Below, one piece after another: positions 1 to 37,192 of a DNA stretch of 37,192 bases (the stretch's first letter is position 1; each line of letters opens with the position of its first letter). Below the pieces are notes generated by a model, which searched no databases, had not been told where the DNA came from, and was given only the letters and a program-made list of their open reading frames with translations. This DNA comes from Bacteroidia bacterium (GTDB lineage: Bacteria > Bacteroidota > Bacteroidia > JAIBAJ01), in the NCBI GenBank assembly GCA_019695265.1, contig JAIBAJ010000022.1:1-37192 (forward strand), read 5' to 3'. Position numbers and translations under genes: made by a program.

Positions 1-2386
1 ATGCTCTACCTTGGTTGGTAATTACAACATTTAATTGAAAACTATCCAAGGTTGTTGTAACATCAGTTGGATTGGTAAAAACCAAATTTGGAGAAATCAT
101 TAAATCAGGTTTCCTAGGAGAATTTATTATTAATGCCGGATCACCATGCAAAGTCATCTCTAAACATACATCCTTAGAATCTGTATTATTTGGATTTTGA
201 GTTTGAAAAATGGTTCTACTGATAATTTCACCAACTGTTTTACCATAAAAATTTTGTCCGAGATTTTTAAAAAATGCAGTAGAATAAACATGCAAATATT
301 GCTGAAGTCCTTTTGTAATCTGAGCAAGAAAACCTATTCCTCCTTTACCATCCAATAAAACCCAAGGCTCACTTTGACTTTGTCCATCATCAGGCAAATG
401 AATATCACCAGCTAAACAAGAATTTGCTACGATAAATGGGTATTTTCCTTGATTGTTATAGGTACTTGGTTCATCAGTACTTACGTCAAAACCACTTCCT
501 GCGGCATGACCGAAAAAAGTCATAATAGAAACTCCACTGTTTACAAGGTTTCGAATACTATCTGCCAAAGAAATATTAATTGGTGCCGAAGTTGTACTTT
601 GGAAAGTATGCACGATTCCCCCAAACAAAGTATCCTCCAAGGTATTTTTATATGAATTCAAATAAGATAACAATGTTGATTGTTCTGCAGGATTGGAACC
701 TCCTGAAAAATGCGCAATTTGCTTCATCCAAGGTTGAGGATCCGAGGCAGCAGTTTCATACTCTATTACCTTGTTATGATACCAAGTTACATGTTCTGGA
801 ACCTTTGCGGCTAATCGTCCAATATATACCCCTGTTTCCCACAATCCTCCATTTATTCCGGATGTAATAAGATTATCACTACTTGGAAACCCCCAAGTAG
901 GGACTAAATTCTGAGCTGCGTAAACCGGATTGGTTCTCCATTTCATTTGAAAATCACTCATAACAGATTTCCCAATAATAAAAAGATGGGTACTGCTCCA
1001 AACATCCTTTCCATATTCGGCAAAACGGCGAATTGCCAATGGATTTTGCTTAATTCCATGCGAAAACTGGTCATATAACTCCGCAATATCTATAGCCATA
1101 CCAGGCAATCCTTGACTAGTTCTATAGGCTGCATATGATTGCGCTTCTGCCATTAAACTTTCATGACTAACAATTAAATGTTTTGGATTGGATAAGCTAG
1201 TTAAGTTGGTAAAATATCCATTGCTTCCACATGGAACCATATTGGAAATAGGTAGTGCCTGACCTTCACCTGTGAAAATACATTCTTTTAATCCTCCATT
1301 TGGAATTAAAACTGAAAATGTACCACCAGACCCGCCAACAGGTAAACGCTTGTGATTAGTAAGATCATAAACATAGGATGTGTTTTGATTCCCTAACACG
1401 TTGGTGAAGTCAATTCTATATTTAGATTGTGAAGGATTATCCTCCAAAAGAAACCTAAAGGTTCCAACTCCACCACCATTTGGCTGTTTTGGATATCTAA
1501 GCCAAACATAGGAAATTGCCTTTTTGTTTGAAGAAACAGACATTGGATTGCTCAATCCCAAAAAGGTGAAATTAGAGGTGGCCCCCAAATTAGCTGAAGA
1601 AATAGAAACACTAAATTTTGCTGCTAATGACCCAACCCAAGAAGTATCTAATTGATTTCCATTTGGCAAAGCTATTCTTAACGAATGGCCATCTTTTGAG
1701 GTACCAACGACACAAGCTCTAAAAATAGCATCATATCCTGAAACTGAATTTGGGGTTGAAATTGCTTTTGTAACAGAACCACCTATACCGAATTGATTGG
1801 TGGTTTCAATCCAACCTTCACCACTCACATACTCCGGATCTGTAACTCCATATGCATTTGTTGGTCCAAGAAAATAACCAGTAGGAAACTTTTGTATTAC
1901 ATCACTCCAAATATGGTTGGTTGAATTATAGGAATTAAAATTCACATCAGTTTCTAGTGAAAACCGATTATTATTAATTCCAGATGAAATTGTAAAAAAA
2001 TAATAAGCCGTATCTGTATATAAACTATGAAAAGGATTGGTAATTGCAGATGGAGTTTGATAAACTAAGCTATCTAAATAGCCATCATTTGACATGGCAT
2101 AAAACTCTATATAATCACTTTGATCAAAAGAGCCATCATTTTCTCCTGAAATATAAAGATATTGTTGAACCCCGCGACCATAAATCTGAAACCTCCTAGG
2201 ATCCTGGCCATTAATCTGAATTCCTGCATTCAGCAAATCAGAATAAGTAATCCTGTAAATACCTGTTTGAACAATAGGAAATTTAAAATAGACTTGTGAA
2301 TAATCAATCCATTCATTGCCATATGGCTGGGAGACTGATTGAAAGCCAATAAGTACTAATCCTAATAATCCTAAAATTCTTTTCAT
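1..2386 (-). CDS. C25 (gingipain-like) cysteine peptidase, PorU2-type T9SS sortase candidate; 3' end outside window
   Basis: An open frame runs without a stop from ATG at 2386 to the left edge (795 codons seen), so the C-terminus is missing. Residues 1-19 form a signal peptide ending in SVSQ. A long beta-rich region follows, then a C25 caspase-like fold. FFGHA carries the likely catalytic His627 and ANSCLAGD the likely catalytic Cys657. A family-typical segment near DIAELYDQFSHGIKQNPLAIRRF-like residues precedes them, and LHGDPAL follows. After the peptidase domain comes a CARDB-like beta segment. C25 enzymes include gingipains and PorU, which cleaves T9SS sorting domains and attaches cargo at the outer membrane. 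The ATG overlaps the stop of the upstream PorV-like gene (TGATG), as expected for a coupled pair. Pairing with a PorV/PorQ-type barrel favours a PorU2-like role over a secreted protease; this is inference, as the C-terminus is not visible. Confidence 0.85.
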   Translation of the reverse strand, partial: MKRILGLLGLVLIGFQSVSQPYGNEWIDYSQVYFKFPIVQTGIYRITYSDLLNAGIQINGQDPRRFQIYGRGVQQYLYISGENDGSFDQSDYIEFYAMSNDGYLDSLVYQTPSAITNPFHSLYTDTAYYFFTISSGINNNRFSLETDVNFNSYNSTNHIWSDVIQKFPTGYFLGPTNAYGVTDPEYVSGEGWIETTNQFGIGGSVTKAISTPNSVSGYDAIFRACVVGTSKDGHSLRIALPNGNQLDTSWVGSLAAKFSVSISSANLGATSNFTFLGLSNPMSVSSNKKAISYVWLRYPKQPNGGGVGTFRFLLEDNPSQSKYRIDFTNVLGNQNTSYVYDLTNHKRLPVGGSGGTFSVLIPNGGLKECIFTGEGQALPISNMVPCGSNGYFTNLTSLSNPKHLIVSHESLMAEAQSYAAYRTSQGLPGMAIDIAELYDQFSHGIKQNPLAIRRFAEYGKDVWSSTHLFIIGKSVMSDFQMKWRTNPVYAAQNLVPTWGFPSSDNLITSGINGGLWETGVYIGRLAAKVPEHVTWYHNKVIEYETAASDPQPWMKQIAHFSGGSNPAEQSTLLSYLNSYKNTLEDTLFGGIVHTFQSTTSAPINISLADSIRNLVNSGVSIMTFFGHAAGSGFDVSTDEPSTYNNQGKYPFIVANSCLAGDIHLPDDGQSQSEPWVLLDGKGGIGFLAQITKGLQQYLHVYSTAFFKNLGQNFYGKTVGEIISRTIFQTQNPNNTDSKDVCLEMTLHGDPALIINSPRKPDLMISPNLVFTNPTDVTTTLDSFQLNVVITNQGRA

Positions 2387-3498
2387 CAAGATTTTTTATT
2401 TAGATCAAACTTTAAAGAAAAAACATGGCTATACTGAGCAACCGATACGTTTCCAATATTGGTGAAAGCATAATCTACATAAAAATTCTTTATCCTAAAC
2501 CCTGCCCCAATATTTGGCTGAATGGTTGAAATCTTCTTACCTAAATCATCTGTATATGTTTGAAAATTACCAACTCCGGTCCTTATAAAAACGATGTTGC
2601 TATAAGCAAATTCTACACCCAAACGAGGGTCTATACTTATTGGATCTCCTTTTATCAAAACATTCCTTTTTCCATCGGTGGTCATTTCAAAATTTATCTC
2701 CGGATAACAAGAAAATTTCTTGTATATATTAATCTTCCTACCTACTCCTAAAATAAATCTTGGCAATGTAACTTCTAATGAATTTGTTGGAATTTCATTG
2801 CCAGTTTGTTGAAACACTTCTTTTGTTCTCTCATCCAAAGAAAAACTCCATGCATTGAATGTGCTGGTAACATCCCTTGCCATTAAACCAAATTTCCAAG
2901 CTCCTCTATCGTACTGAACACCAAAATCGAGACCAAACCCAATGGCATTTGCAAACTTACCAACCTTTCTATAAACTATTTTGACATTAGCCCCATATCG
3001 AAGGCCCTCAATTTTAGTCTTCCTGGAATACGTTAATAAAAAGGCATAATCTGAAGCTGAAAATTTTGTAATTCGATCATAATTTAAATTACCATTATTA
3101 TCTATCAGCTCTGTGGTATTTGGAATATTGTCCACACCAAATCGTATAATACTCAATCCAATCGAAGTGTTTGGATTCAATGCATGGGCAACTCCCAAAT
3201 AATCATACTTCGCTATTCCAGCGAAATACTCCGAATGCATTAATCCTACGGAAACTAAACTTCTAACATTAACAAGCCCCGCAGGATTCCAATAACCGGA
3301 TGTTACATCTCCAACATGAGCAACTGATGCATTGCTCATTCCCAATGCTTTTGCACCAACCCCAATTTGTAAAAACTCATTACTATACTTAGGTGCTTGG
3401 GAATAAACAATTTGAAAAGTAAATAAAACTAAAATTTTGGCAACGATTAGTACTTTCTTCATATACATAGGTGGGGTGTTATTATGGTCAGCCCGCAT
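2386..3498 (-). CDS. PorV/PorQ-family outer-membrane beta-barrel protein
   Basis: The protein has 370 residues. A hydrophobic signal segment (MKKVLIVAKILVLFTFQIVYSQ) is followed by FLQIGVGAKALGMSNASVAH and SGYWNPAGL, the N-terminal signature of the PorV/PorQ (UPF0164-like) family. The rest alternates short beta strands and glycines, as in a 14-strand FadL-like barrel. In T9SS, PorV shuttles cargo from the translocon to the PorU sortase; PorQ-type relatives do related work. The partner here is the C25 peptidase directly downstream, whose ATG shares one base with this stop codon. The start is uncertain: ATG at 3498 gives 12 extra residues, and ATG at 3468 or 3462 puts the signal peptide at the N-terminus and fits better. 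AAAATTTG just upstream of 3498 is a one-mismatch -7 box. Confidence 0.88.
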   Translation of the reverse strand: MRADHNNTPPMYMKKVLIVAKILVLFTFQIVYSQAPKYSNEFLQIGVGAKALGMSNASVAHVGDVTSGYWNPAGLVNVRSLVSVGLMHSEYFAGIAKYDYLGVAHALNPNTSIGLSIIRFGVDNIPNTTELIDNNGNLNYDRITKFSASDYAFLLTYSRKTKIEGLRYGANVKIVYRKVGKFANAIGFGLDFGVQYDRGAWKFGLMARDVTSTFNAWSFSLDERTKEVFQQTGNEIPTNSLEVTLPRFILGVGRKINIYKKFSCYPEINFEMTTDGKRNVLIKGDPISIDPRLGVEFAYSNIVFIRTGVGNFQTYTDDLGKKISTIQPNIGAGFRIKNFYVDYAFTNIGNVSVAQYSHVFSLKFDLNKKS

Positions 3499-22743: not shown

Positions 22744-24369
22744 ATGTCTAACAACGAGACCCGCGCCAGAACGATTATTTACCTTCCATTAATTCTATCC
22801 ATTGTATTAATTGCAGGGATTTACTTAGGAAAATTTATTCACTTTGATAAAGCAGGATTTGGTGCCGGAGAGTTTTCAAATAACAACAAAGTAGAAAACA
22901 TTTTAGACTATATTGAAAACGAATATGTTGATACAATAAGCAGGGAAAAGCTGACAGAAGAGACTATTATTTCCATGCTACAGCAATTGGATCCACATTC
23001 TCAATACATACCCGCATCCGAACTTCAAGAAGTAAATGAAAGTTTAGAAGGGAACTTTAGCGGAATTGGAGTAGAATTTAACATTATTAACGACACCATT
23101 GTGGTTGTTTCAGCTATTGCTGGCGGACCTTCAGAAACATTAGGAATTACAGCAGGAGACAGGATAGTTAAAGTAGATGGAAAAGCAGTGACCGGTATAA
23201 AAATTAAGAACTCAGATGTTGTAAAAAGACTTAGGGGGGTAGAGGGTACTATTGTCAATGTTGATATTAAAAGAGGTGATCAAAAACAATTACTCCATTT
23301 TAAAATTAAACGAGGTGAAATTCCAATTACCAGTGTTGACGCCGCGTTCATGCTTAATTCTGAAGTTGGTTATATTAAAATTAGTCGTTTTGCATCGAAG
23401 ACTTTTGAAGAATACCTAGAAGCCTTCGGCAAATTAGCTAACAAAGGAATGAACAAGTTAATTCTTGATCTAAGGGGAAATCCTGGAGGCTACTTAAATG
23501 CAGCCATTAAATTAGCGGATGAATTTATTCCAAAAGGAAAACTAATCGTTTATACAGAAGGCAAAGCAAGACCAAAAGAATCATTCATTGCCACAACCAC
23601 AGGTGGCTGGGAAAACAAACATGTTTGCATTTTAATTGATGAAGGGTCTGCCTCTGCAAGTGAAATTGTTGCTGGAGCTTTACAAGACAATGACATTGGC
23701 ACCTTAATTGGCAGACGATCTTTTGGAAAAGGATTGGTGCAGGAGCAAAAAGATTTACCTGATGGTTCAGCCATACGATTAACCATAGCACGCTATTATA
23801 CACCAACCGGCAGAAGCATTCAAAGGCCCTATTCTAACAATTTAGATGCTTATTATGAAGAAGTGTACGATCGTTACCAAAATGGAGAACTCACTAATCA
23901 GGATAGCAGTTCAAAGCACGTAAAAAAAGATAGTTTAATATATAAAACAGCAAAAGGTAAAATACTTTATGGAGGAGGTGGAATTACTCCAGACATCTTT
24001 GTTCCACTTGATACAGTTGGTTATACTAGTTATTTTTCTGAACTAGTCAATTCAGGTACACTTAACAAATATGCATTTAAATATTGTGATGTCCATCGGA
24101 GGATGTTGAAAGAAAAATTTAAAACCATTGACTCTTTCAAGAAAAATTTTGAATTAGGTGAATCTGAAATGACTGAATTCCTTCAATTTTCAATTCAGCA
24201 AGGAATAAAAGAAAATAAAGGGAAATGGGCTAAATCCTATCAACAAATAAAACTTCAATTAACGGCTCAAATTGCCAGAAACTTTTGGGGTAGTGAGGGC
24301 TTTTATTCCATTTTAGAATCTAAGGACAAATCCATTCTTAAAGCGATAGAGGTAATGAATAAACATTAA
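22744..24369 (+). CDS. S41A C-terminal processing peptidase (CtpA/Prc-like)
   Basis: The protein has 541 residues. One N-terminal membrane helix (10-29) exports it to the periplasm. A PDZ domain (about 95-190, with GIGVEF and GITAGDRIVKVDG) binds substrate C-termini. The protease core has LILDLRGNPGGYLNAAI (239-255), GSASASEIVAGAL (301-313) with catalytic Ser304, and GRRSFGKGLVQ (323-333) with Lys329; the 25-residue Ser-Lys spacing matches Prc. A C-terminal helical extension of about 120 residues follows. It sits 22 bp after porW, so the two are probably co-transcribed. Whether it processes T9SS parts is unknown. Confidence 0.93.
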   Translation: MSNNETRARTIIYLPLILSIVLIAGIYLGKFIHFDKAGFGAGEFSNNNKVENILDYIENEYVDTISREKLTEETIISMLQQLDPHSQYIPASELQEVNESLEGNFSGIGVEFNIINDTIVVVSAIAGGPSETLGITAGDRIVKVDGKAVTGIKIKNSDVVKRLRGVEGTIVNVDIKRGDQKQLLHFKIKRGEIPITSVDAAFMLNSEVGYIKISRFASKTFEEYLEAFGKLANKGMNKLILDLRGNPGGYLNAAIKLADEFIPKGKLIVYTEGKARPKESFIATTTGGWENKHVCILIDEGSASASEIVAGALQDNDIGTLIGRRSFGKGLVQEQKDLPDGSAIRLTIARYYTPTGRSIQRPYSNNLDAYYEEVYDRYQNGELTNQDSSSKHVKKDSLIYKTAKGKILYGGGGITPDIFVPLDTVGYTSYFSELVNSGTLNKYAFKYCDVHRRMLKEKFKTIDSFKKNFELGESEMTEFLQFSIQQGIKENKGKWAKSYQQIKLQLTAQIARNFWGSEGFYSILESKDKSILKAIEVMNKH

Positions 24370-24399
24370 GAGTTATTAGGTGTTTTTTATTAATAACTC
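24370..24399 (+). terminator. Inverted repeat after the protease gene, possible weak terminator
   Basis: GAGTTATTA (24370-24378) pairs perfectly with TAATAACTC (24391-24399) around a T-rich 12-base loop. No U-run follows, so termination would be weak at best. Confidence 0.3.
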
Positions 24400-24451: not shown

Positions 24452-25510
24452 ATGCAGTTGTCGACCCAAACATCCATTTCTAGAGAAGAACTAATTAACC
24501 TTCATGATATTTTTTACAAACAAGGGGGTAATTTTAGTAAGAAATATTCTGAACCATGTTTGGATATTCTGACAGAAATTTATCAAGGAAGAAAAATTCA
24601 GCTTTTTGACCATGAGTTTTCTGCAATTGTTTTTGCGTTGAAGTCTTTTGGAGTTACAGCCATGGATGAAGTAATTGTATCCTCTCACATAAACGCAACT
24701 TTTCTCCTCGCAATTACCACATTAGGTGCAATTCCAAAACCAATTATTACCAGTTACTCTTCACCCAAGTTCCAAACAACCCAACTTCAAAAGTTCATAA
24801 GCCCTAAAACCAAAGCAATAGTGCTCGATTATATCCATGGGGTAATGCCGGAATTGGACGAAATAATTTATTTGACTGCTCAAAAAGGTATTTTTCTATT
24901 GGAATATGCTTCTGACGGATTGGGTGCATCCTATAAATACAATCCCATTTGCAGCTTTGGACACATTGGTATTATTGGGTTTAATAATTTCAACAGTCCA
25001 ATAAACCTAGGTTGTGCTTTAATAAGAAACGACTCTTCTATTCCTTGGGCATTTTCTGAGGATAATTTAAAAAAGTGTGAAATAGAATTATCTGAACTTA
25101 AATCTGCCATTTTATTACCACATTTAAGAGAAACCGACACGCTTAAGGAAACCAGGAAGGATATCTGGATGATTTACTTGCAATTCTTGCAAATATTAGA
25201 AGATGAAAACCGATTCAAAATCCTTGGATCTTCAGAAATGGATAGTCACAACTTTTCTGGCCTTTCCTTAATTTTTGAAGAACCAACAATTGGAAATGAA
25301 TTACACACCTATTTATCAGAAAATCAGGTGGAAACAAATATCCAATCAAACAATTCGGAATGTTTTCTTGATTTACCCTTCCACCCCAATCTAACCGAAG
25401 AAGAAATACTTCGAATTACACTCTATGTAAATGAGTTTTTTGGACATAATGACCCAACTGATTCCATTTTAGAACTAAGAAGGAATTTTTTGGAAGATTT
25501 TGACCTATAA
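24452..25510 (+). CDS. Degenerate DegT/DnrJ/EryC1/StrS-fold protein lacking the PLP lysine
   Basis: The protein has 352 residues. The large-domain pattern of sugar aminotransferases is clear: MDEVIVSSHINATFLLAI, TKAIVLDYIHGVMPELDEI and SFGHIGIIGFNNF. Key residues are gone, however. The usual E-D-A-A, whose Asp contacts the PLP ring nitrogen, reads EYAS. The usual P-T-K-N-L-G, whose Lys forms the Schiff base, reads SPINLG (codon ATA). With both missing it should not be a normal aminotransferase. It may bind a nucleotide-sugar without catalysis, or have a new activity. The frame is intact and long, so decay is unlikely. It starts 82 bp after the protease gene and is followed 17 bp later by the amidohydrolase-like gene. 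Confidence 0.75.
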   Translation: MQLSTQTSISREELINLHDIFYKQGGNFSKKYSEPCLDILTEIYQGRKIQLFDHEFSAIVFALKSFGVTAMDEVIVSSHINATFLLAITTLGAIPKPIITSYSSPKFQTTQLQKFISPKTKAIVLDYIHGVMPELDEIIYLTAQKGIFLLEYASDGLGASYKYNPICSFGHIGIIGFNNFNSPINLGCALIRNDSSIPWAFSEDNLKKCEIELSELKSAILLPHLRETDTLKETRKDIWMIYLQFLQILEDENRFKILGSSEMDSHNFSGLSLIFEEPTIGNELHTYLSENQVETNIQSNNSECFLDLPFHPNLTEEEILRITLYVNEFFGHNDPTDSILELRRNFLEDFDL

Positions 25511-25527: not shown

Positions 25528-26814
25528 ATGAAGAATATTGCATTCATTTACCTAATAATTCAAATTGCCTTTATCCAATTTACATTTGGACAAACTAAAC
25601 CGATAATATTGTTTGGTGGGACAGCACACCTTGGCAATGGTAAGGTAATTAATAATGCTGCCATAGGCATAGAAAATGGTAAAATCAGTTTTGTTATGGA
25701 TGCCGCAACCATTCGATTAAATCCAAACGAGGCCGAAATAATTGACATTACCGGGAAACATGTATATCCTGGTTTTATCGCTGTAAACAACACCATAGGA
25801 ATTACAGAAATTGAAGCGGTTAGAGCTACAAATGATTGGAATGAAACAGGGAGTTATACTCCACATGTAAGAACATTAATTGCTTTTAATCCAGAATCTA
25901 AAATAATACCTACCGTTAGATCAAATGGTATCCTATTGGCGCAATCAACGCCTAGAGGTGGAGTAATTTCCGGTACTTCATCAATATTTTGCTTGGAAGG
26001 TTGGAATTGGGAAGACGCTGTATATAAATCGGACGATGCCATCCATATCCAATTTCCGAATTGGTTTAATAGATCGGGCTGGTGGGCAGAAACCGGAATA
26101 ACGGAAAAAAATAAGGACTATGAAGTTCAATTGAAGGAACTAAAAAAATTCTTAATGGAGGCAAAGGCTTATAATTCCGTTTCCAACCATCCTGAAAAAA
26201 ACTTAAAATTTGAAGCTTTAAAAGGTGTATTTAATGGGAGCCAGGCAGTTTTCATTAATGCGAATTATTCAAAAGAAATTCTAGATGTAATACAATTAAA
26301 AAAAGAATTAGGAATTTCAAGAGTTATAATTGCAGGAGGCCTAGATGCTGAAGCTGTTTTGCAAGCACTTCAGAACAGTGGAATTCCATTGGTTTTAAAT
26401 AGACTTCATGAATTACCTAATAAAACGGATGCACCAATTGACCAATATTTTTCCTTACCCAAGATATTAAAAGATGCGCAAATTCCCTTTTGTTTAAGCT
26501 ATGTAGGAGGAATGGAAGCTATGGGGGTCCGAAATTTACCGTTTGTTGCAGGCTCATCTGTAGCCTATGGATTAAGTAAGGAAGAAGCCTTAGGAAGTAT
26601 TACTCTTCAAGCTGCAAAAATTCTTGGAATTGATTCTTCTACTGGATCCTTGGAAAGTGGAAAAGATGCGACTTTATTTATTTCGACAGGAGATGCATTA
26701 GACATGACAGGCAACCATTTAGAAAGAGCATGGATCAAAGGGAAAGAAATTAATTTATCCAACTCTCAAATTGAACTTTACGAGAAGTACAGTAAAAAGC
26801 TAGAAATCAGATAA
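25528..26814 (+). CDS. Exported amidohydrolase-superfamily protein
   Basis: The protein has 428 residues. Residues 1-22 are a Sec signal peptide (IAFIQFTFGQ). The fold is recognisable from IIDITGKHVYPGFIA (71-85) and from the C-terminal SLESGKDATLFIS and TLQAAKILGID. Where active enzymes have the metal-binding H-x-H after PGFID, this protein has VNNTIG (86-91), so the first metal site is missing. RSNGILLAQSTPRGGVISGTSS is conserved among Bacteroidota relatives. These relatives are annotated as amidohydrolases, but catalysis is unproven. It is close behind the DegT-like gene (17 bp) and 12 bp before the DUF1295 gene, so it is in the same operon. Confidence 0.8.
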   Translation: MKNIAFIYLIIQIAFIQFTFGQTKPIILFGGTAHLGNGKVINNAAIGIENGKISFVMDAATIRLNPNEAEIIDITGKHVYPGFIAVNNTIGITEIEAVRATNDWNETGSYTPHVRTLIAFNPESKIIPTVRSNGILLAQSTPRGGVISGTSSIFCLEGWNWEDAVYKSDDAIHIQFPNWFNRSGWWAETGITEKNKDYEVQLKELKKFLMEAKAYNSVSNHPEKNLKFEALKGVFNGSQAVFINANYSKEILDVIQLKKELGISRVIIAGGLDAEAVLQALQNSGIPLVLNRLHELPNKTDAPIDQYFSLPKILKDAQIPFCLSYVGGMEAMGVRNLPFVAGSSVAYGLSKEEALGSITLQAAKILGIDSSTGSLESGKDATLFISTGDALDMTGNHLERAWIKGKEINLSNSQIELYEKYSKKLEIR

Positions 26815-34154: not shown

Positions 34155-37100
34155 TTATTTGAACAAGCTAATGAATCCGGTTTTTTCGAAATCACCTTTC
34201 AATCCACCATTTACTTTCAAAACATAGTAGTAAGTACCTTCTTCAAGATTTACCCCAGCATTGGTTTTTCCATCCCAACGAATTTCGCGGCCTTCGCTCA
34301 CATATACTTGTTGACCCCAACGGTTGAAGATTGTGATTCCATAAGAAATCGCACCGTTGTTTTGTATCCACAAGATATCGTTGTTGCCATCACCATTTGG
34401 AGTGAATGAGTTTGGAACTGTAACTACTTGTTCAATGCCAATAGTTTGAGAAGTACTATCCACACAACCAAAAGCATTAGTAACTGTTAAAGTAACTACG
34501 AATGTATCGGAAGATTCGTATGTATGGTATGCATTCTGACTTACAGAAGTATAACCATCTCCGAAATTCCATAACCAGCTTACCAAATTGCTACCAGCAC
34601 TTAGGTCGGTGAAGTTGGTTGGATTACCAAATGAAGTACCAGCGTAAACAAAGTCTGCATCAGGTTTTTCAGCTACAGTAACTAAAACTGTATCTGTTTG
34701 ATCAGGACAAACGCCATTGCTTGCTGTAACCACATAAGTCTCGGTTCCGACATTTGAAACTTGAACAGTGTTAATACTTGTGTTTACCCCATTGCTCCAA
34801 GCATAGGAGGAAATAAATCCGCCTTGATTTGGAGTAGCGAACAAGGTAACATTACTTGGACCGCAAACCACCACATCAGGACCTGCATTTACATAAGGCA
34901 ATTCGCGAGTTAACACAGAAATTGGACTGCTAGTTGCCTGACAACCATTTGTATCTGTGGTAGAAACAGTGAATTGTCCATCTGTTGATACTATAATTGA
35001 TTGAGTAGTATCACCATTACTCCACAAGTAGTTAGAAGCCACAGATGAAGTAAGTGTCACGCTATCACCTAAACATATTACAGTATTTCCGTTTGTACTA
35101 ATTACCGGTGGTTGCGGTGTTACTACAGTTATAGTTACACAAGACTGACCAGAACATCCTGAACCGATTTGAGCAGTTAAACAGTATGTGCCAGATTGAT
35201 CAACTACAATACTTGAACCAGTTGCGCCATTACTCCAAGTATAAGTTCCACCCACATTTGCAGTTAAGGTTACTGAAGAACCTTGGCAAATAGTAGTTGG
35301 ACCATTTAGGGAGATAATGTTTGAAGGAACCTGCCCTACATTTACAATAACTGTTGCAACAGATGATGTTGAACCTGAGTTGTCTTGAACGGTATAGGTC
35401 AAAGAATCGGTTCCGTTAAATCCTGCATTTGGAGTATAAGTAACTGTACCATCTAGGTTATTTACAATTACACCATTGCTTGGATTTGATTGAACAGCAA
35501 CAGATGAAGGTACTAATGAACCATCAGAATCCGAATCGTTTGCCAATACATTTACCACTACAGGAACTCCTTCGCAAGTGAATGCAGTGTCATTGGCAAC
35601 ACCTGGAACCTGATTCACATAATCTACTGTAATAATAACAAGTGCAGTATCACACAATGCAGGAATGCCATTGTCACAAACCTGATAGATTAAGGTATCG
35701 TTTCCAAAGAAACCATTGTTTGGTGTATAATCGATTGACCCATTGGTATTAACTACAACAGTTCCGTTGTTTGGCTGATCTGTTACAACTACGCTTCCAA
35801 CATTTAATCCATTGTCAGAATCAGAATCATTGGCAAGAATAACCACGTTAATTGGTGTATTCATTGGCGTAGTATCTCTGTCAATTACAGCAATTGGAGG
35901 TGTATTAACCGGACCATTTACAACAATTATAACTAGAGCAGTATCACACATTGGAGGTACGCTATTATCGCAAACTTGGTAAATCAAGGTATCGATACCA
36001 GTAAATCCATTGTTAGGTGTATAAATAATTGTGCTATCGCTATTGTAGGTCACATTACCATTGTTAGGTTGATCAACTATTGTAACCGAGGTAATGCTTA
36101 AGCCATCATCAGTTCCATTATCATTCGAAAGGATATTGAATGTAATTGGAGTATTGAAGGCTGTTGCATTATCATCACGATTTGCAATTGGAGGAACATT
36201 TGGCAAGCTAGAAACATTGATAATAACAATTGCAGTATCGCAAAGAACCGGCATTCCATTATCACAAACTTGGTAAATCAAAGTGTCAGTACCAGCAAAG
36301 CCATTGTTTGGACAATAAGTAATAGTTCCATTTGCATTTAGCGTAGCAGTACCATTTACAGCAGAAACGGTTATCGTTACTGATGCGGTATCCAAGACAC
36401 CATCAATATCCAAGTCATTTCCTAAAACATTGATTGTTACACAAACATTTTCAGGTGTGCTTGCATTATCTGGATTTGCAATTGGACCATCATTAACTGG
36501 AGTTACAACCACAAACACAATAGCAGTGTCACACAAGGTTGGATTACCATTATCACAAACATTATAGATAAAGCTATCAGTTCCATTCCAATTTGTATTT
36601 GGAGTGTAGGTAACAGTTCCGTTAGCATTAACCACAACTGTACCATTAGATGGTTGACTTACCACAGTAACTGAAGTTGGCACAATCAATCCATCTGCAT
36701 CAGAGTCATTACTTAAGATTGCAATTGTTACAGGAGTATCTTCTTGCGTTGTATCGTAATCTACTACAGCTACAGGAGGGATGTTTCCGGAACCAACATT
36801 AATAATAACCAAGGCAGTATCACACAATACTGGCATTCCATTGTCACATACCTGGTAAACCAAGGTGTCATTACCGCTGAATCCAATTGTTGGACAATAA
36901 GTAATAGTTCCATTGCTATTAACTGTAGCTATACCATGAGCTGGATTTACTAGAACAGTAACAGTTGCAGGATCAATAATACCATCCAAATCAGAATCAT
37001 TCGATAAGATATTGATAACCACACAAGAATCGTATGGGGTAGAAATAGTATCAACGTTAGCAACAGGAGGATCATTTACAGGAGTGATATTGATTACAAC

Positions 37101-37192
37101 TAAAGCTGTATCGCATAACACTGGCATTCCATTATCACAAACACTATATACCAAAGTATCTACTCCATTGTAGTTGGTATTTGGAGTGTAAT
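34155..37192 (-). CDS. Giant Ig/cadherin-like repeat surface protein with T9SS type-B sorting domain; 5' end outside window
   Basis: The frame is open through the right edge (1011 codons plus two bases seen); TTG at 37154 is internal, not a start. Six complete repeats and one partial repeat of about 97 residues come first (PPVANVD...ILSNDSD...CDTALVIINV, cadherin-like/Big_9 type). Three Ig-like segments of the CQGSSVTLTA...YTWSNGATG type follow, then a PKD domain (NFTDLSAGSNLVSWLWNFGDG). The protein ends in NSFTPNGDGNNDILWI...IFNRWGQQVY...GTYYYVLKVNGG, the CHU_C/gliding-motility-associated type-B sorting domain. The T9SS should export it and attach or release it at the surface; an adhesin or matrix role is likely. 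Most repeats carry paired Cys (VCDN...LCDT). A clear terminator follows the gene. Confidence 0.93.
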   Translation of the reverse strand, partial: YTPNTNYNGVDTLVYSVCDNGMPVLCDTALVVINITPVNDPPVANVDTISTPYDSCVVINILSNDSDLDGIIDPATVTVLVNPAHGIATVNSNGTITYCPTIGFSGNDTLVYQVCDNGMPVLCDTALVIINVGSGNIPPVAVVDYDTTQEDTPVTIAILSNDSDADGLIVPTSVTVVSQPSNGTVVVNANGTVTYTPNTNWNGTDSFIYNVCDNGNPTLCDTAIVFVVVTPVNDGPIANPDNASTPENVCVTINVLGNDLDIDGVLDTASVTITVSAVNGTATLNANGTITYCPNNGFAGTDTLIYQVCDNGMPVLCDTAIVIINVSSLPNVPPIANRDDNATAFNTPITFNILSNDNGTDDGLSITSVTIVDQPNNGNVTYNSDSTIIYTPNNGFTGIDTLIYQVCDNSVPPMCDTALVIIVVNGPVNTPPIAVIDRDTTPMNTPINVVILANDSDSDNGLNVGSVVVTDQPNNGTVVVNTNGSIDYTPNNGFFGNDTLIYQVCDNGIPALCDTALVIITVDYVNQVPGVANDTAFTCEGVPVVVNVLANDSDSDGSLVPSSVAVQSNPSNGVIVNNLDGTVTYTPNAGFNGTDSLTYTVQDNSGSTSSVATVIVNVGQVPSNIISLNGPTTICQGSSVTLTANVGGTYTWSNGATGSSIVVDQSGTYCLTAQIGSGCSGQSCVTITVVTPQPPVISTNGNTVICLGDSVTLTSSVASNYLWSNGDTTQSIIVSTDGQFTVSTTDTNGCQATSSPISVLTRELPYVNAGPDVVVCGPSNVTLFATPNQGGFISSYAWSNGVNTSINTVQVSNVGTETYVVTASNGVCPDQTDTVLVTVAEKPDADFVYAGTSFGNPTNFTDLSAGSNLVSWLWNFGDGYTSVSQNAYHTYESSDTFVVTLTVTNAFGCVDSTSQTIGIEQVVTVPNSFTPNGDGNNDILWIQNNGAISYGITIFNRWGQQVYVSEGREIRWDGKTNAGVNLEEGTYYYVLKVNGGLKGDFEKTGFISLFK
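35345..37192 (-). repeat. In-gene tandem repeat array (about 97-codon units)
   Basis: Six full units and part of a seventh encode the cadherin-like domains of the surface protein. The segment coding YQVCDNGMPVLCDTA is nearly identical in DNA between several units, a sign of recent duplication or gene conversion. The last unit lacks the Cys pair and reads VQDNSGSTSS there. The array continues past the right edge. Confidence 0.85.

Follow-up and report, generated by a model that had tools for sequence, protein, structure and literature searches.

A DegT-family protein without a PLP site in an isolated branch of Bacteroidia: a probable cofactor-free pseudo-aminotransferase

Introduction

What does a member of a sugar aminotransferase family do once the residues that hold its cofactor have gone and its reading frame has stayed intact? 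The question is raised by a gene at 24452-25510 on the forward strand of a 37,192-nucleotide stretch of DNA (contig JAIBAJ010000022.1, assembly GCA_019695265.1), the whole of which we refer to as the window; the source genome belongs to an isolated branch of Bacteroidia. The gene begins with ATG and runs for 352 codons with no internal stop. Members of the DegT family are annotated en masse as aminotransferases, and in a literature search that was not exhaustive we met no description of a DegT pseudoenzyme. A sequence-only reading of the locus had proposed that the product retains the DegT fold without the lysine and aspartate of pyridoxal phosphate (PLP) chemistry, and that it is maintained for a new role, for example the binding of nucleotide sugars. 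Here we ask how much of that proposal holds, and what the protein is most plausibly kept for.

Fold and family

By profile, the 352-aa protein is a member of the DegT/DnrJ/EryC1/StrS family (PF01041, 80.5 bits, E 1.8e-22, against a gathering cutoff of 19.8). Its best NCBIfam profile is that of WecE (NF008687), on which it scores 77.7 bits, far under the curated cutoff of 375. Its closest solved relatives by sequence are likewise sugar transaminases (7b0d, E 4.5e-13), in an alignment that covers residues 57-331 and leaves the large and C-terminal domains both recognisable. The C-terminal tail (residues 333-352, 25448..25507, forward strand) is missing from nearly all aligned homologues and carries a helix predicted with low confidence at 335-349.

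When given an input alignment of 74 DegT proteins of viral contigs, AlphaFold2 returned a model with a pLDDT of 84.8 and a pTM of 0.82. The best matches of this model are all sugar aminotransferases, with WecE on top (Foldseek 1.2e-21), and its superposition on WecE (6blg/4piw) aligns 314 residues with Z 34 and an rmsd of 2.4, placing it within the fold type I of PLP enzymes. From the single sequence no model forms (pLDDT 40.6); the model thus depends on the DegT alignment and cannot count as evidence separate from the homology call. Read with that dependence, the profile score, the WecE-like model and the replaced lysine and aspartate columns described below bear out the proposal of a DegT fold kept without PLP chemistry.

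Cofactor and substrate sites

Conservation was assessed against 90 other DegT sequences of Bacteroidota, comprising the hits of the genome searches and 20 further loci; counts at the lysine column were taken from the genome-search loci, the viral survey being biased because its search patterns contain the lysine. Of the 31 columns with at least 85% conservation among the homologues, the 352-aa protein keeps 16, against at least 19 for each of the other homologues and a median of 29. The kept columns lie mostly in the core (A58, D72, E73, V74, I75, G92, I116, T120, K121, A122, G130, E151, Y161, G170, F177 and A219), and most of the lost ones come from the cofactor or substrate site. Four columns are invariant in all 90 homologues, namely the ring-nitrogen Asp, the FSF-motif Ser, the Schiff-base Lys and the final Gly of GEGG, and the protein replaces every one of them, as compared with 16 of 27 kept among the remaining columns at that threshold. 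Smaller sets agree on the Lys and Asp columns (59/59 and 70/70).

All coordinates of the replaced residues refer to the forward strand. Tyr152 (24905..24907) occupies the ring-nitrogen column (D in 90/90), Asn181 (24992..24994) the Schiff-base column (K in 90/90) and Gly176 (24977..24979) the phosphate-binding Ser column of the FSF motif (S in 90/90), while Cys188 (25013..25015) stands at the last glycine of GEGG (G in 90/90), a motif that is here cut to LGC. At the phosphate-binding Thr column of the SGT/SCT motif the protein has Phe56 (24617..24619; T 67, L 13 and S 8 of 90 in homologues), at the column of the aromatic residue stacked on the PLP ring it has Asn81 (24692..24694; F 39, Y 23 and W 4 of 70), and at the Gln/His column that contacts O3' of PLP it has Asp155 (24914..24916; Q 72, E 12 and H 4 of 90). 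The lysine column was placed at Asn181 by an ungapped count from the Ser-Phe motif (F177 N178 N179 F180 N181). Since the segment from E151 to C188 has 36 residues, one fewer than in any homologue (at least 37), the column could instead fall on F180 or S182, and there is no lysine nearby either way. The sequence-only reading was therefore right that the Schiff-base lysine is absent and that the aspartate has become tyrosine, and wrong about the substituting residue: the isoleucine that it assigned to the lysine position (I184, in SPINLG) reflects a misalignment of three residues. In the family alignment no other lysine of the 352-aa protein falls at the PLP position. As compensating residues, the nearest lysines were considered and rejected: K162 matches the YKGK position, which in homologues is on the surface, and the pair K207/K208 lies outside the site.

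Loss of the lysine has a precedent within the family. In the PMP-dependent ColD/E1 3-dehydratases, histidine replaces the lysine, the aspartate and phosphate site are kept, and PMP is still held. The 352-aa protein likewise combines a DegT fold with the absence of the lysine, and its model superposes on E1 (3bcx) with Z 30.7, but it has neither the histidine nor the aspartate nor the phosphate site, these columns being occupied by Asn181, Tyr152 and Gly176. A 3-dehydratase of the ColD/E1 type is thereby ruled out, as the earlier remark that the protein is not ColD-like had anticipated. The ColD/E1-type dehydratase signature, with histidine for the PLP lysine, was met separately in a DegT protein of a viral contig (L208:1465-2628, FSFFFSHHIQTMEGG, IMGVR_UViG_3300047548_001136).

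The losses extend beyond the two residues recorded at first, to the phosphate Ser and Thr, the stacking aromatic, the O3' Gln/His, GEGG and two substrate loops. The PLP contacts of Spr1654 are Lys199, Asp170, His173 (usually Gln), Tyr84 (an aromatic position), Ser194, Thr59, Glu205 and Gly206 (PMC5936713). Their motif equivalents in the 352-aa protein are, in the same order, N181, Y152, D155, N81, G176, F56, L186 and G187, so that of the eight contacts only the glycine G187 is kept. From these residues we infer that the protein would be unable to form a Schiff base or to hold PLP or PMP.

The substrate side is reduced as well. Between C188 and A219 (25013..25108, forward strand) there are 30 residues, as against at least 41 and a median of 44 in homologues, and the flexible substrate loop of the form GTNR...GxNxR is missing. 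Between L288 and L308 (25313..25375, forward strand) there are 19, as against a median of 43 and a 5th percentile of 38, with one short outlier of 19 among the homologues, and the conserved His-Tyr sugar-binding loop is missing. Amino donor, sugar and diphosphate are all bound by these two loops in Spr1654 (PMC5936713). Because both of these loops are missing or cut down, the suggested nucleotide-sugar binding lacks support, and the protein would not be expected to bind nucleotide sugars in the classical way. Compared with WecE/RffA (dTDP-4-amino-4,6-dideoxygalactose transaminase), with which it shares the fold, the best family profile and some 21% identity, the protein lacks four features of a PLP-dependent sugar aminotransferase: Schiff-base lysine, ring-nitrogen aspartate, phosphate-binding Ser/Thr and substrate loops are all gone.

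Selection on the reading frame

Neutral decay was simulated from the genome's own WecE-type gene (L058), with 300 runs at each of seven divergences, 2100 in total. At 0.2 substitutions per site the simulated genes had acquired a mean of 11 stops while 2.6 of the 7 PLP residues had changed; by the time most of the PLP residues were gone the stops exceeded 20, and none of the 2100 runs was free of them. The simulation is simple (equal-input substitution, without indels) and the margin is large. Since neutral decay yields about 11 or more stops and the real frame has none, the sequence evolved to its present form while selected for an open frame and a fold; a very recent release from that selection is possible. 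The simulation supports the original appeal to the intact frame as a sign of a maintained role. The GC content by codon position (0.41/0.32/0.30) is similar to that of the adjacent SprE gene, as in a normal gene of the window.

Distribution and paralogues

No orthologue was found in 60 relatives and 395 genomes of the class, where the best non-self match reached 1.1e-14 at about 30% identity over residues 56-197, nor in 395 genomes of the phylum, where the best reached 2.5e-15. The best matches among these roughly 700 class and phylum genomes are ordinary DegT enzymes, about 30% identical over the large domain. At the level of the order, for which the sample consists of its own genome only, none was found beyond it. 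Contigs of the genome collection scanned with the 352-aa protein gave no orthologue, and neither did viral contigs or the plasmids and phages searched, the last with 22-24% identity at best. A further scan of the genome collection with a fragment of the neighbouring protease, aimed at sister species, yielded 80 loci in Bacteroidota, and no DegT gene lies near any of them. Within the class genomes, no DegT-like gene lies in the 1.5-kb flanks of 29 loci of the protease and 11 of the amidohydrolase that adjoin the gene here; within this sample, its position is therefore peculiar to the one genome. The DegT form lacking both lysine and aspartate is at present a single sequence. Orthologues in sister species would make it the first member of a new pseudoenzyme subfamily.

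Five other DegT genes were found in the genome, all of them among the 90 homologues with the invariant Asp, Ser, Lys and Gly. One is a WecE-type enzyme by curated cutoff (400.8 against 375 bits), with lysine, aspartate and serine intact. The gene under study is unlinked to any of these paralogues.

Proposed role and alternatives

We suggest, with a good measure of confidence, that the product of this gene is a pseudo-aminotransferase, catalytically dead and cofactor-free, whose ancestor was a WecE-like sugar aminotransferase of the DegT family. Sequence and model show a preserved fold core from which the PLP anchors and two substrate loops are gone, and the protein is probably a retired enzyme kept for a non-catalytic job. 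What that job may be is suggested by LCB1 (SPTLC1), which is, like the 352-aa protein, a fold-type-I PLP relative without the PLP-binding lysine that has been kept as a protein, and which works as the partner of LCB2 in serine palmitoyltransferase (PMC3794620). LCB1 belongs to a different subfamily, and its pairing with LCB2 is proven, whereas a pairing of the present protein is hypothetical. In view of this analogy, and of the fact that DegT active sites sit at the dimer interface (PMC5936713), we tentatively propose that the fold persists because the protein works by contacting other proteins. The most plausible arrangement would be one in which it partners or regulates, without catalysing anything itself, a DegT paralogue that is still active, a candidate being the WecE-type enzyme of the same genome. 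The missing loops normally complete the active site of the neighbouring subunit, and their loss could produce an inhibitory or a purely structural partner. We would also entertain, with similar reserve, a lineage-specific PLP-free DegT pseudoenzyme with a new function, be it an obligate non-catalytic aminotransferase subunit or an altogether different protein, binding or enzymatic, that makes use of the emptied cleft.

Other interpretations deserve weight. The gene might have served some other earlier role and now be drifting without selection, having met no stop or frameshift yet. Such decay would fit the absence of orthologues from some 700 genomes of the phylum, the two internal deletions and the branch of the protein in the tree, whose placement is unsure and whose length, 4.05 against a median of 0.32, is the greatest of 91; a branch this long also fits relaxed constraint. 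The deletions, however, are in frame and restricted to active-site loops, the core motifs are retained, codon-position composition is normal, and 352 codons without a stop can be squared with neutral drift only if the loss is very recent, which leads us to regard decay as unlikely. A little less likely still, in our estimate, is the reuse of the DegT cleft for a different, PLP-free chemistry. The intact frame would be in keeping with a new enzyme, as would the polar side chains that the former active site has gained (Tyr152, Asp155, Tyr127 and Cys188), but the substrate loops are gone, there is no pathway context, and a single sequence defines no conserved set of candidate catalytic residues.

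The role offered by the sequence-only reading, that of a nucleotide-sugar binding protein or sensor, is to our mind quite improbable. Descent from the DegT family speaks for it, as do the sugar-polymer genes elsewhere in the window: at 5.2-8.1 kb these are an epimerase and glycosyltransferases, at 28.5 kb a sugar-phosphate transferase. Against it stand the curtailment of precisely those loops that engage the donor and the nucleotide sugar (PMC5936713) and the presence of Asn81 where the stacking aromatic should be. The pseudo-aminotransferase remains our preferred reading. A DegT member with an intact frame that lacks the whole cofactor site and the substrate loops would mean that the family also yields pseudoenzymes, and this protein offers a testable case for whether such pseudoenzymes regulate active paralogues.

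Genomic neighbourhood

Upstream of the gene lies a C-terminal processing protease (22744-24369), which in turn follows the type IX secretion lipoprotein PorW/SprE (707.7 bits); downstream, 17 bases away, is an amidohydrolase-like gene (25528-26814), followed by a DUF1295 gene. In the class genomes examined, neither the protease nor the amidohydrolase adjoins a DegT gene, so the neighbourhood offers no clue to function. The promoter scan before the DegT-like gene did no better than chance. Between the protease and the DegT-like gene, at 24370-24399, is an AT-rich hairpin of 10 pairs with six T in its loop (-8.8 kcal/mol, z -2.1), which fails the terminator pattern in a terminator scan.

Metal-dependent amidohydrolases carry the motif PGxIDxHxH, in place of which the amidohydrolase-like protein has PGFIAVNNT. 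All 11 class relatives compared (about 50-57% identical) lack HxH too, so that this is a family widespread in Bacteroidota and devoid of the metal-binding motif normally present. Elsewhere in the window, a 370-aa protein (2386-3498) has a weak match to the type IX secretion protein PorV (21.2 bits, below the cutoff of 27), and a 999-aa protein (34155-37154) with repeated Big_9/cadherin-like domains, a PKD domain and a C-terminal CHU_C type IX secretion signal is likely, to judge from these domains, to be secreted or surface-located.
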